Assembly (NCBI RefSeq): GCF_964212655.1
Contig: NZ_OZ156465.1
Location: 3,534,001-3,598,000, forward strand
Source of the DNA: Candidatus Thiodiazotropha sp. LNASS1
Lineage (GTDB): Bacteria > Pseudomonadota > Gammaproteobacteria > Chromatiales > Chromatiaceae
Reading direction: 5' to 3'
DNA: 64,000 nucleotides
In this document: positions 50,121-54,387 of the stretch, piece after piece
Layout: each line of letters opens with the position of its first letter
Numbering within the stretch: position 1 is the first letter of the stretch
Notes under the pieces: model-generated
The model's input: only the letters and a program-made list of their open reading frames with translations
Database searches by the model: none
What the model was told of the DNA's origin: nothing
Translations under genes and position numbers: made by a program

Positions 50121-50354
50121 TCACTGCGGACCCTGTTCCGTATGTTCAATCGGTGTTGGTTCTTGCGGCTCGGGTTTTCGCCAGGAACCGAACAGTAGTG
50201 TCAATAGCCCCAACAACAGCTCGTCCGCGAAAGGGATCAGATCGGGTATCAACAGATCGATGACAAACAGCGAAGCGGTCACCAGAAACAGCTGACGGAA
50301 CTTCAGTCGGTCGGCATATTTCAACAGGGCTGCGATAATGGGTATTTGAGTCAT
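50121..50354 (-). CDS. Small DUF6116-like membrane protein
   Basis: This 77-residue protein has two hydrophobic segments and the conserved-looking core KFRQLFLVTASLFVIDLLIP, then DLIPFADELLLGLLTLLFGS and WRK, which I recall from DUF6116 proteins of gammaproteobacteria. The start at MTQIPIIAAL was preferred over the longer frame. It is directly upstream of the lipoprotein gene and likely cotranscribed. Function is unknown. Confidence 0.7.
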   Translation of the reverse strand: MTQIPIIAALLKYADRLKFRQLFLVTASLFVIDLLIPDLIPFADELLLGLLTLLFGSWRKPEPQEPTPIEHTEQGPQ

Positions 50355-51180
50355 CTGGTTTCGGATTCTCAGCCTGTTATGTGAAAACAGCACTCAGCAA
50401 CAAGTTTGCGCTGCAAACCGCATCGATCTCCACTGTTAATGGTCTCCGAAGTGCAGGTGCCAGTCCAGTTCAGAGTGTGAAATATTATGACCTTGTCCGG
50501 TCATGCGGGTGGTCATTCCAGCCGTTCCACCGCCTTAAGGTGGGTAATTACTAATATGAGAAAGTAGGGTAACTACCCATAATAAACATGATTGCCATAG
50601 GGTAATGTTAATGCGAAGGAATTCTTAAGAATTAACATAAGTTGAAAAAAACTAAGAAATTTTAGCTCTACTGAGGCTGTTTCACGAATTTGAGTTCTCG
50701 GTAAAAACAAAAATTGGAGAATGGATGGGGTGACCGGTAGGTGTGCAGGCTCTTCTGCTAATGAATCGGGTTTTTAAGGGGTTCTTTTTGGATTTTGGTG
50801 TGCTCGCTCTTCAAGCTGGATGGGGCTTGACTCCGATATCTCAAGGGAAACCGGTTCATTGGCAGGTTTGTACGCCACGCTGGATATAACAACAACGCCA
50901 ATCGTGTAGGCATGGTGCTAAGTACGGCCGGCTTCGTAGGCAGTCTGTCGCCCGCACGCAGTCACCACCTTCCGGGTAAGTCAAATATTTCACCACCCTT
51001 CACCATGATTACTTGGATGCATTATTGCGTGAGGTCGCTTTTCACGCGGCATCCAATGAAATGGGGTCGTTGACTGGTTATGGGAAAATCGGTGGCGCTA
51101 GCCGCTGTCGCGTTCGGAATGACCGCAAAGCAGTAACAAACGACTGAGTTAAATTTAGCTTTCACATTCTGGAGAAGCGT
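50355..51180. other. Long intergenic region with palindromes upstream of the cytochrome-porin
   Basis: No gene was recognised in these roughly 825 bases. It contains three GGGTAA copies (near 50542, 50567 and 50600), one in a perfect palindrome GGGTA-AC-TACCC (50567-50578), and a separate 14-bp palindrome AATTCTTAAGAATT (50620-50633). These lie about 550 bases before the Cyc2-like gene and may be operators or a divergent promoter region. Confidence 0.5.
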
Positions 51181-52422
51181 ATGACTAATAGACTCACGAT
51201 GTTGCATGGCTATGCAATGGGGATATTGATACTGATAGGGAGCCTGGTGCTTCCGCAACCGGCGGATGCTGTGCCCGCTTTCGCACGTCAGACAAGCATG
51301 CCCTGCACGGCCTGTCATTTTCAACACTTTCCAACGCTCAATTCGTTCGGTAGATCATTCAGGGCGGGTGGCTACACACTGACCGGTGGTCAGGGCATGA
51401 TCGAGGGCGATGATATCTCCCTGCCGTTGATGTTGAACGCATCGGTGATAACCAAGCTGCGTTATGTAAAGAGCAACGGCAACACCAATGTCGGCAGCGA
51501 CTATGGTGTTATCGAGTGGCCGGACGAAGCGGCTCTCCTGGTGGGGGGCAAGCTGGCCAAGGATGCCGGCTTTCTCATGGAGCTGGGATTGACCGATGCC
51601 AACTCTTTCCTCTCAACCAAAGTCCATTTCAACGTGGGTAAGGCGGGAGGTACCCAATTCAGTGTCATACCTTTCTCCACCGATGGCCTGGGATCGGCAT
51701 ACGGATTTGAGTTATTGAATACCGGCGCCCAGCGCTCACAGCGGCCGATCGAGGATCGTACAGGATTCAGTGCCGCCCAGGCGCTGGGTTTGGGCAGTGG
51801 TGAGGCTACCGGTATCGCGCTTGTTGCCTCGAGTCATAACTTTTTCATCAACTACACCCCATGGGTGCCGGGTTGGGAAGAGAATAACGTGGAGGTCAAG
51901 CCGTCCGGGCTGGCTCACTACCTGCGCGCTGCCTACACTCCGTTTATCGGATCCTGGGATACCGGGTTTGGCTTTCAGCTCTGGTCGGGAGATGCGGAAG
52001 TCGCCGATGGCGCAGGTGGCGAGACCCTGATTGCAACCGATGGCTGGGTCGTGGATGGCCAGATGCAGGGCAGTGTGGGTAGTATGCCATTGGGCATCTA
52101 TGCCAGTTTCGGCAGTTGCTCCGCCGATGAGTCACATTTTCTGGAAGGCTGCACAAATACCGATGATGGTGAGGCGTTCGGTATTCTTGCTCAACTGGGT
52201 ATCCTGCCCAACAAAGCCAATGTCTTCGCTGCCTATCGTGCTCTCGACGACGGTTCGGAAGAGGATTCTGAGTTCAATTCCACCACAGTCGGCTTAAACT
52301 ATCTGTTCTCTCAAAATATTCGTTTTGAACTCTTCTATGTGAAAGAGAGTGGTGATGGTGTGGATGCACGCGACAATGATCGTGACAGCAAATGGTTGTT
52401 CCAGCTCTTTGCCGGCTATTAA
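51181..52422 (+). CDS. cyc2: Cyc2-like fused outer-membrane cytochrome-porin
   Basis: This 413-residue protein has a signal peptide (about 1-30), one haem site CTACH (Cys42, Cys45, His46) immediately after it, and then a long beta-rich region consistent with an outer-membrane barrel ending in LFQLFAGY with a terminal aromatic. The haem surroundings (VPAFARQTSMP before, FPTLNSFGRSFRAGGYTL after) match the Cyc2 signature closely. Cyc2 is the outer-membrane monohaem cytochrome-porin that oxidises Fe(II) outside the cell in Acidithiobacillus and Mariprofundus. Length fits. GGAGA lies before the ATG. A dihaem cytochrome gene follows 93 bases downstream. The electron donor in this organism is not shown by sequence. 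Confidence 0.82.
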   Translation: MTNRLTMLHGYAMGILILIGSLVLPQPADAVPAFARQTSMPCTACHFQHFPTLNSFGRSFRAGGYTLTGGQGMIEGDDISLPLMLNASVITKLRYVKSNGNTNVGSDYGVIEWPDEAALLVGGKLAKDAGFLMELGLTDANSFLSTKVHFNVGKAGGTQFSVIPFSTDGLGSAYGFELLNTGAQRSQRPIEDRTGFSAAQALGLGSGEATGIALVASSHNFFINYTPWVPGWEENNVEVKPSGLAHYLRAAYTPFIGSWDTGFGFQLWSGDAEVADGAGGETLIATDGWVVDGQMQGSVGSMPLGIYASFGSCSADESHFLEGCTNTDDGEAFGILAQLGILPNKANVFAAYRALDDGSEEDSEFNSTTVGLNYLFSQNIRFELFYVKESGDGVDARDNDRDSKWLFQLFAGY

Positions 52423-52515
52423 TGGACAGCATGCACACAAATCTAAAAACGAATCGACTTCTCAGTCGCCTCGGCTGCATGTGGATTGCAGTCAGAACCA
52501 AGTGAGGACTAACTC

Positions 52516-53178
52516 ATGAACAGAATTGTTACTAGAATGGCTGGATTCGCAGCGTTGGTTAGCGCATTCGGATTGATTTCACTCCCTGCTTACGCGGGTG
52601 ATACCTATCAGGGCTATACCCTTTATAATCAGTCTTGTTTTCTCTGTCATGGAACAGATGGCAAGGGCAATGGACCGTTGGCAAAAAAACTCGATGTGGC
52701 GCCTGACGACTTGACCGATGGAGATAACGGCGCGGCGGAAAAATCTGACCGAGAGCTGTTTGGTATGATACAGGGCACTATCAAGCACGGTTCTGGCGCC
52801 AGCGCCATGCCGCAGTGGGGGTTGGCCATGCCGGGTAATCAGATCAATTCCCTGGTCGCCTACATCCGTTTTCTACAGAGGTCCAAGCACCCCCTATTGG
52901 GTGATCCTGTTGTGGGGAAGAGTGTATATGACAATAATTGCGCCGCCTGTCACGGTCGCTCGGGTAAAGGGGACGGGCCGCTGGCAGCCGTGCTGAATCT
53001 GAAACCGAAGGACCATACCGACAGTGCTGAAATGAACAAGCACCCCAACTCCCACATGGTTGAGATCGTGACCAATGGAACACCGGGTAAATCGCTGATG
53101 CCCGGCTGGAAGGACATGCTCACAAAGGCGGAAATTGAAGGAGTGGTCGGTTATCTGCGTCTGTTATCAACCTACTAG
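52516..53178 (+). CDS. Periplasmic dihaem cytochrome c
   Basis: This 220-residue exported protein (signal peptide to about residue 27, SLPAYA) has two class-I cytochrome c domains with haem motifs CFLCH (41-45) and CAACH (142-146). Candidate distal Met ligands are Met98 (SAMPQWG) and Met195 (SLMPGW). The duplication and HG-DGKGNGPLA / HGRSGKGDGPLA pattern resemble cytochrome c4/c553-type diheme carriers. Located directly after the Cyc2-like gene and before a terminator, it probably takes electrons from the outer-membrane protein to the inner-membrane chain. GAGG precedes the ATG. Confidence 0.9.
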   Translation: MNRIVTRMAGFAALVSAFGLISLPAYAGDTYQGYTLYNQSCFLCHGTDGKGNGPLAKKLDVAPDDLTDGDNGAAEKSDRELFGMIQGTIKHGSGASAMPQWGLAMPGNQINSLVAYIRFLQRSKHPLLGDPVVGKSVYDNNCAACHGRSGKGDGPLAAVLNLKPKDHTDSAEMNKHPNSHMVEIVTNGTPGKSLMPGWKDMLTKAEIEGVVGYLRLLSTY

Positions 53179-53204
53179 ATAACGAATAGAATGAACTGGG
53201 TAGG

Positions 53205-53234
53205 GCCGCTGCCAAAAGGCAGCGGCTTTTTTTT
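53205..53234 (+). terminator. Rho-independent terminator after the cytochrome operon
   Basis: A 9-base GC-rich stem (GCCGCTGCC / GGCAGCGGC) with an AAAA loop is followed by eight T residues. It lies 26 bases after the dihaem cytochrome stop and closes the two-gene unit. The stop of the convergent lipoprotein gene lies a few bases further on. Confidence 0.93.
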
Positions 53235-53239
53235 ACCGC

Positions 53240-53887
53240 TTATAATGTGTCGAGAATATTTTTCCGGGCTTGTTGATACTCCTCTTCCGTAATCAAGCCC
53301 TCCCGCCTGAGATCATCAATGCGGATCAGGCGTTGTCTAACCGTATTATTCGCCGGTTGTTTGCCGGCTTCGATTTTTTCATTCTTTGGTGTATGCCGTG
53401 GAGTGGGACTCGGTTGAGTAACGGAATGAAGCTTTTGCTCCACCTCCATGTTTTTGGCTGCTGGTGGCCTGTCTTGTTGTGAAATAACTGAAGGAGCTAT
53501 TGCCTTGGCTGGTTGGGAGGCCTGTTTGCTGGCGCTTGACTGGGTTCCGCTGCAGTTGAGTTCGATCGACAACCCGCTGTTGAATTCCTGGTAACGGATG
53601 CGTCTTCTAAGATCCTGGCAACCCGACTTTCTGATCAACAGTGTACCGTACATCGGCTCTTTTTTGGCATCATAACCCGCAGGGTAGATCTGCTGTTGCG
53701 GGATTGAGATTGGTGTTTCACCGATCGCTTTTCCCATCACGTAGACGGTGGCTCCACTGGGTTCAGTATCAACATTAAGCGGCATGTCACCCGAAACTCC
53801 GCCTATACCCGTACAAGCCTGGAGCAAAGGCAGGCAGGCTGTGATGCAGATCGCATCTTTTATCCCCGGTAATAGATAATTCCCCAT
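53240..53887 (-). CDS. PEGA- and SHOCT-domain lipoprotein
   Basis: This 215-residue protein begins with a lipoprotein-type signal (ICITACLPLLQAC). A PEGA-like domain (about 38-70: LNVDTEPSGATVYVMGKAIG, then ETPISIP) follows, then a low-complexity linker, and a C-terminal SHOCT motif (RIDDLRREGLITEEEYQQAR). PEGA domains occur in surface or periplasmic proteins; SHOCT is a short oligomerisation motif. It is convergent with the cytochrome operon. Its role is unknown. Confidence 0.78.
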   Translation of the reverse strand: MGNYLLPGIKDAICITACLPLLQACTGIGGVSGDMPLNVDTEPSGATVYVMGKAIGETPISIPQQQIYPAGYDAKKEPMYGTLLIRKSGCQDLRRRIRYQEFNSGLSIELNCSGTQSSASKQASQPAKAIAPSVISQQDRPPAAKNMEVEQKLHSVTQPSPTPRHTPKNEKIEAGKQPANNTVRQRLIRIDDLRREGLITEEEYQQARKNILDTL

Positions 53888-54387
53888 TTTGTGCCCTCTT
53901 TAACAGGATTTTGTTCTGACCTGCAGGCACTATAAATCAAGCCATGACAAAAGACACGTTCATTAGGAGGGCTTGCCGATTCTTTGGGAAGTCCCGGTTC
54001 TGTCATGTCTGGCGGAGCGTTTCTGCGACACTGGAACCCTATAAAAAATACAGAGACTCCTTAACGTTTAATTAAGCGGTAACTACTGGTTCACATTTTT
54101 GTTTATCTGTTTTGGCTTTTAAGTTTTGGTTAAGAATGGGCTACTAATTTTAACACTAAAGAATACGACCGCCCTGTAAATCAGGAGAGGAACACTGCAC
54201 TAAAGAGCCGTCACTCAGGGGGGGTAAAGCCTGGCAAGAGATGTGATGGCTGTTGCAAGTTGATGGATATATGCCGGAGCTGTTGGGGTTTTGTGGTCAG
54301 GGCAGCGTTGTGGCCCTTTTTAGATTTGTTAAGACTTGAAATGTTGCAAGTCATTTTATGAGTTTGTGTAACTCTGGAGGTTTTAAG
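53888..54387. other. Intergenic region between divergent genes
   Basis: This AT-rich region separates the PEGA-SHOCT gene from the secreted hypothetical gene and should contain both promoters. No gene or repeat was recognised. Confidence 0.4.

Follow-up and report, generated by a model that had tools for sequence, protein, structure and literature searches.

The window analysed here, a stretch of 64,000 nucleotides (3534001-3598000 of a complete 4.75-Mb genome), carries at positions 51181-52422 a gene whose product belongs, on strong sequence evidence, to the Cyc2 family of fused cytochrome-porins, next to the gene of a dihaem c-type cytochrome. By analogy with the Cyc2 of Mariprofundus ferrooxydans PV-1, this protein is proposed, with a probability of about 0.6, to be a Cyc2 of Cluster 1 type that draws electrons from Fe(II) or from reduced minerals and hands them to the dihaem carrier. 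If active, it would give symbionts seen as sulfur oxidisers a further electron donor outside the cell, probably of importance when they are free-living. The window cyc2 (the gene at 51181-52422) shares 99% identity with the copy of Ca. Thiodiazotropha endolucinida (L003); judged by its sequence, the source genome thus belongs to a Ca. Thiodiazotropha endolucinida-like lucinid clam symbiont that oxidises sulfur, or to a close relative.

The cyc2 locus and its protein

The features of the locus are listed below.

51181-52422, + strand: cyc2, 413-aa fused cytochrome-porin; open reading frame with an ATG start and the diagnostic motif of PMC8406198
51181-51270, + strand: putative signal peptide, residues 1-30, ending ADA, assigned by eye on the translation
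51268-51294, + strand: AVPAFARQT, residues 30-38, fitting AXPXFAR[Q/K][T/Y] when the translation is compared with the published motif
51304-51318, + strand: haem site CTACH, residues 42-46, from the translation
51331-51339, + strand: PTL, residues 51-53, the PxL motif four residues past CTACH, from the translation and the published motif
51433-52413, + strand: predicted outer-membrane barrel, residues 85-411, from a low-confidence model and porin matches
52516-53178, + strand: dihaem c-type cytochrome, 220 aa, CcoP-like tandem, from the open reading frame, Pfam, alignment and adjacency
52636-52650, + strand: first haem site CFLCH of the dihaem protein, with Met98 downstream as likely ligand; Met98 and Pro99 are invariant in 11 rows
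52939-52953, + strand: second haem site CAACH, with Met195 downstream as likely ligand; Met195 and Pro196 are invariant in 11 rows
53202-53234, + strand: intrinsic terminator, 12-pair stem and T run, from a stem-loop scan

The family has been defined by AXPXFAR[Q/K][T/Y] before CXXCH, PXL four residues past CXXCH, a single haem site, a length of 365 residues or more and a porin barrel (Keffer 2021, PMC8406198). In the window protein a hydrophobic N-terminal stretch, read by eye as a putative signal peptide, is followed by AVPAFARQT, SMP and CTACH, then by FQHF and PTL, in a chain of 413 aa with one CxxCH; the haem site is preceded by AVPAFARQTSMP, then followed by FQHFPTLNSFGRSFRAGGYTL. The single CxxCH soon after the signal peptide, with FARQT before it, is therefore as the original prediction had described it. 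The Ser that it had noted in place of the Gly of FARQTG is real and a trait of the lineage, as Ser follows FARQT in most copies from lucinid and tubeworm symbionts, two of which (L005 and L020) have Gly, whereas all 31 zeta-type rows have Gly at this position. A literature search for FARQTG found nothing.

A chance motif is excluded by the end-to-end relatives of the protein, 17 aligned rows with 48-99% identity to it, and by the low dN/dS of cyc2. This ratio was 0.031-0.096 in six of eight comparisons with relatives (two undefined; several dS values above 1 and saturated), and 0.098-0.207 in five of eight for the dihaem gene (the rest undefined; several dS values saturated); selection on both genes looks purifying. 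Regarding sequence databases, the Cyc2 protein gave no Pfam match, no meaningful NCBIfam match and no match in a PDB sequence search at E 10. Such missing matches are usual for the fast-changing Cyc2 porin.

The C-terminal region, earlier described as beta-rich, was modelled by AlphaFold2 on 19 aligned relatives, giving a low-confidence model (mean pLDDT 50.8, pTM 0.55) in which a pLDDT of 23-34 was obtained for the N-terminal 50 residues, the part with the haem domain that Cyc2 proteins have at the periplasmic mouth of the pore. DSSP divides this model into 18 strand pieces, or 16 strands if two broken pairs each count as one. In VIA-align the top three matches were OprO and OprP (Z 17.2-17.5, rmsd 4.0-4.5, 275-284 residues aligned), a ranking tied with OprB (Z 16.7), and the porin matches cover residues 48-383 of the mature protein; Foldseek also returned porins, with modest TM-scores of 0.18-0.46 among the 50 matches listed, and an earlier model (pLDDT 44.1) had matched these porins too, with lower Z. 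The structural homologues named as closest to Cyc2PV-1 are OprO and OprP (PMC8406198). A fused 16-strand outer-membrane barrel of the Cyc2 kind is predicted by this low-confidence model, as had been anticipated, and neither of the contrary outcomes named beforehand, a fold without a barrel or a best match to an unrelated cytochrome family, was seen. The protein would be placed in the outer membrane with its haem loaded.

Downstream of the dihaem gene, the strong terminator claimed earlier was recovered as a 12-pair stem-loop with a T run at 53202-53234, the longest among six terminator-like sites in 50300-53900 (shuffles: mean 3.3), and the two genes, whose reading frames overlap in L033 and L034, may be co-transcribed. 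The genome has one full-length cyc2, no second copy being found there by a profile of 17 relatives, and the 7 kb inspected on either side of the locus hold no rusticyanin or oxidase genes. A convergent gene for a SHOCT-like lipoprotein lies downstream of the locus (window 53240-53887), with counterparts at the same position in L011 and L018, among them a tubeworm symbiont.

The dihaem neighbour and other multihaem genes

The dihaem cytochrome gene that the original prediction had placed after cyc2 is present at 52516-53178, and its 220-aa product carries two CxxCH sites with a conserved Met-Pro downstream of each. Pfam assigns it to Cytochrome_CBB3, and a profile built from symbiont-family rows only finds its closest solved relatives among CcoP subunits; with this profile, CcoP was at the top of the 45 PDB sequences matched at E 1e-4 and no cytochrome c4 chain was among them. 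The c4 chains 1etp and 1h1o surface once two c4-like rows of L067 join the profile. An identity as cytochrome c4 is unsupported by the symbiont-family profile, the earlier c4 matches having come from the L067 rows.

A two-haem reading frame lies beside cyc2 in 20 of the 21 named loci (L022 being the exception) and in all 12 full-length family matches, a set overlapping these loci. Among other gammaproteobacterial cyc2 loci, mostly with flanks of 1-2 kb, it was found in one of ten (L067, with cytochromes of another type), and at the zeta-type loci in none of 31, where the flanks are mostly 1-2 kb and a gene farther away would be missed. The periplasmic carrier step varies among lineages of Zetaproteobacteria. 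The dihaem protein is a candidate for a lineage-specific partner of Cyc2, and a concrete one for the periplasmic carrier.

Two further multihaem regions are present in the same genome. The first, a minus-strand cluster (L126:5864-12466, equal to C1:1010863-1017465 of this genome), encodes in order a 681-aa protein that has no Pfam family and looks barrel-like by eye, a protein with NHL repeats, one of 597 aa with 11 CxxCH and a 385-aa dihaem protein. The latter is 39% identical to the window dihaem and is its paralogue adjoining the 11-haem/NHL cluster; it has a weak SixA/PmrG-like phosphatase match, below the cut-off, and was matched nearly full length in this fused form in 13 of 20 genome entries, two of which are the same genome. 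In the second region (L127, and C1:3683187-3696821 in this genome), a 798-aa protein has 11 CxxCH and is accompanied by several proteins with three or four haems and by one of 593 aa that belongs to no family. MtrB/PioB (TIGR03509) had no match in the genome, nor in any of 14 controls. A broader and speculative reading, which we hold only tentatively, is that lucinid and tubeworm symbionts take up electrons through exchangeable outer-membrane ports (the Cyc2 pore, and separately the 11-haem/NHL/barrel-like cluster), each feeding its own CcoP-like dihaem protein, one of them fused to a phosphatase-like part, and in this way might live in sediment on Fe(II), iron sulfide and other solid donors when free-living.

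Placement among Cyc2 clusters and distribution

At E 0.001, the Cyc2 profile matched 16 of 146 genomes of the family, 63 of 369 of the class and 89 of 398 of the phylum. Most of the listed genomes of f207, a family of another class, have one to four profile matches. We infer that f207 represents the Zetaproteobacteria, because the exact site of the 16S primer Zeta672F, whose sequence is given in PMC4877373, was found there: of 14 f207 genomes tested, 5 have it and 9 do not, and none of 12 others has it. Cluster labels were in turn inferred from the motif and from zeta occurrence, without named cluster members, and Cluster 2 has no anchor.

The tree comprises 79 rows, as 19 near-duplicate or truncated reading frames of 97 were dropped and L022 was added; it stands without the loci unpicked by the motif filter (L002, L016, L035, L036, L037, L045, L059, L060, L063, L066, L091 and L099). 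The window protein falls inside a 27-row gammaproteobacterial clade (support 98/87), which joins 31 zeta-type rows (29 from f207, one from f227 and one from the same class) in a 58-row clade with support 96/86, the zeta-type clade itself being weakly supported (88/49). Outside the 58 rows lie a second zeta type (VFARKYGM), which by its motif may be equated with Cluster 3, and an SFARQTG group. Three group profiles, built without the window protein, agree with this placement: the zeta-type Cluster 1 profile (31 sequences) gave 211.5 bits over residues 1-362 of the mature part, nearly its full length, compared to 77.5 bits for the SFARQTG-group profile, mainly in the first 110 residues, and 28.4 bits for the Cluster-3-like profile, mainly in the first 48. 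By tree and profiles, the phylogeny called for in the original prediction suggests that the window Cyc2 sides with Cluster 1, the type of neutrophilic iron oxidisers, with labels that are inferred and Cluster 2 unanchored.

Some other sequences were noted in these searches. The SFARQTG group, with CHTVFPEL-type haem domains, is widespread in Gammaproteobacteria (L050-L064 and others) and forms a Cyc2-like clade of its own; in a single genome (G471) the Cyc2 profile has four matches, and L045 is a strong profile match (E 3.7e-69) without the FAR motif beside its haem site.

Concerning the spread of the gene, cyc2 is absent from one of six same-genus genomes in the sample (G118, 3.4 Mb) and is broken in two Thiodiazotropha MAGs (L007:705-1943 and L016:8001-9238), by one in-frame stop and one frameshift that may be either real or assembly errors; the dihaem gene still adjoins both broken copies. 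Relatives in symbionts of Lamellibrachia and Escarpia have 68-70% overall identity to the window protein. A closely related, Thiodiazotropha-type cyc2 occurs without a dihaem neighbour in a genome of another family (G356, locus L039), and its place inside or beside the Thiodiazotropha rows has node support of 56/54.

Proposed electron path, alternatives and known systems

In published pathways, electrons pass from Cyc2 to a periplasmic carrier, a dihaem Cyc1 in many, and then to an oxidase, and Cyc2PV-1, whose potential is 208 mV, receives its electrons from Fe(II). By analogy, a reductant, soluble or mineral-bound and most likely Fe(II) or iron sulfide, would reduce the haem at the barrel, from which the electron would move to the dihaem protein encoded next, then into the pool of periplasmic cytochromes and to the cbb3 oxidase. 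The oxidase gene ccoN is present in the genome, over the cut-off, and cbb3 is common to all lucinid symbionts (PMC9938160). The symbiont would meet Fe(II) or iron sulfide in sediment during its free-living stage, a stage favoured here because intracellular symbionts have little mineral access. Iron oxidation in lucinid symbionts is described as not demonstrated in PMC12442345.

As for transcription in the host, Cyc2 is not named among the 36 highly transcribed in-host genes in Table 1 of PMC13137333, where hypothetical proteins are omitted. One gene of Ca. T. endolucinida highly transcribed inside clams, peg.3703 ('cytochrome c-like domain superfamily', PMC13137333), was considered as cyc2 and rejected. 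Gene numbers interpolated between dsrC and groEL, with the two genomes assumed collinear, are about 3638 for cyc2 and 3637 for the dihaem neighbour; a 107-aa cytochrome at 3526848-3527171 maps closer, at about 3695, and peg.3703 was consequently dropped as evidence of cyc2 expression. Between the two dsrC genes, 8 genes were counted here, against 11 implied by the numbering of PMC13137333.

The same protein and electron path could serve another donor, such as sulfide, polysulfide, another cell or a solid conductor. This is a possible reading, clearly less probable than iron: the organism group oxidises sulfur, as do many Cyc2 carriers (PMC12442345), and other extracellular electron transfer is considered possible in bacteria not known as iron oxidisers (PMC5566968), but the Cluster 1 protein that has been characterised is an Fe(II) oxidase and no sequence feature of the window Cyc2 suggests a different donor. 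The direction of flow may likewise be questioned, since lucinid symbionts may meet excess electron donor (PMC13137333) and the genome has other multihaem clusters, so that excess electrons might be shed to an extracellular acceptor under scarce oxygen. Such an outward conduit is unlikely, as the 208 mV of Cyc2PV-1, a value from that protein and not from the window protein, suits Fe(II) uptake at neutral pH better.

A haem-bearing porin without respiratory function, engaged in iron or redox sensing or in protection from Fe(II), would agree with the porin-like predicted barrel. It appears at least as improbable as the outward conduit, however, because the gene conserved beside cyc2 encodes an electron carrier with two haems and the zeta-type Cluster 1 profile matches the protein over nearly its full length. 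Electron uptake from Fe(II) or a reduced mineral, with transfer to the dihaem protein, is thus the reading preferred here.

The Cyc2 family and this host group are already in print, and most of what is found here is of a known kind. PMC12442345 (2025) reported Cyc2 orthologues for lucinid symbionts, Ca. Thiodiazotropha, very probably including the window gene, because the genus is the same and the genome has only one Cyc2 copy. In that work the lucinid Cyc2 is a calibration node of a molecular clock for iron oxidation, and what Cyc2 really does, how it is inherited and its occurrence in symbionts of tubeworms and in a single genome from another family all bear on the dating; the L039 gene may bear on the lucinid calibration in particular. 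The main text of PMC12442345 makes no mention of diheme, di-heme, gene cluster or operon. Cyc2-like genes were also described in symbionts of Riftia, Tevnia and Ridgeia, other host genera than those of the Lamellibrachia and Escarpia relatives found here, and extracellular electron transfer was suggested for them (PMC5566968); no description of the cyc2-dihaem pair in symbionts was found in the accessible text of either source.

The rus operon of Acidithiobacillus starts with cyc2-cyc1, like the window, where an outer-membrane Cyc2 gene precedes a dihaem gene (PMC10654088, PMC7029218). In contrast, the window has no rusticyanin or oxidase genes in 7 kb on each side, and its dihaem profile (symbiont-family rows only) matches CcoP best, with no cytochrome c4 (the Cyc1 type) at E 1e-4. 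Compared to Cluster 1 (Mariprofundus ferrooxydans PV-1 and relatives), the window protein shares the single CxxCH after AXPXFARQT, the PxL motif, the fused OprO/OprP-type barrel, here predicted, and a nearly full-length profile match. It differs in its distance, being 22-30% identical to the 31 zeta-type rows, in the Ser after FARQT and in the dihaem neighbour, which is missing from the short flanks of all 31 zeta-type loci. This conserved dihaem partner and its paralogue are the new elements here, small additions to the known Cyc2 systems.
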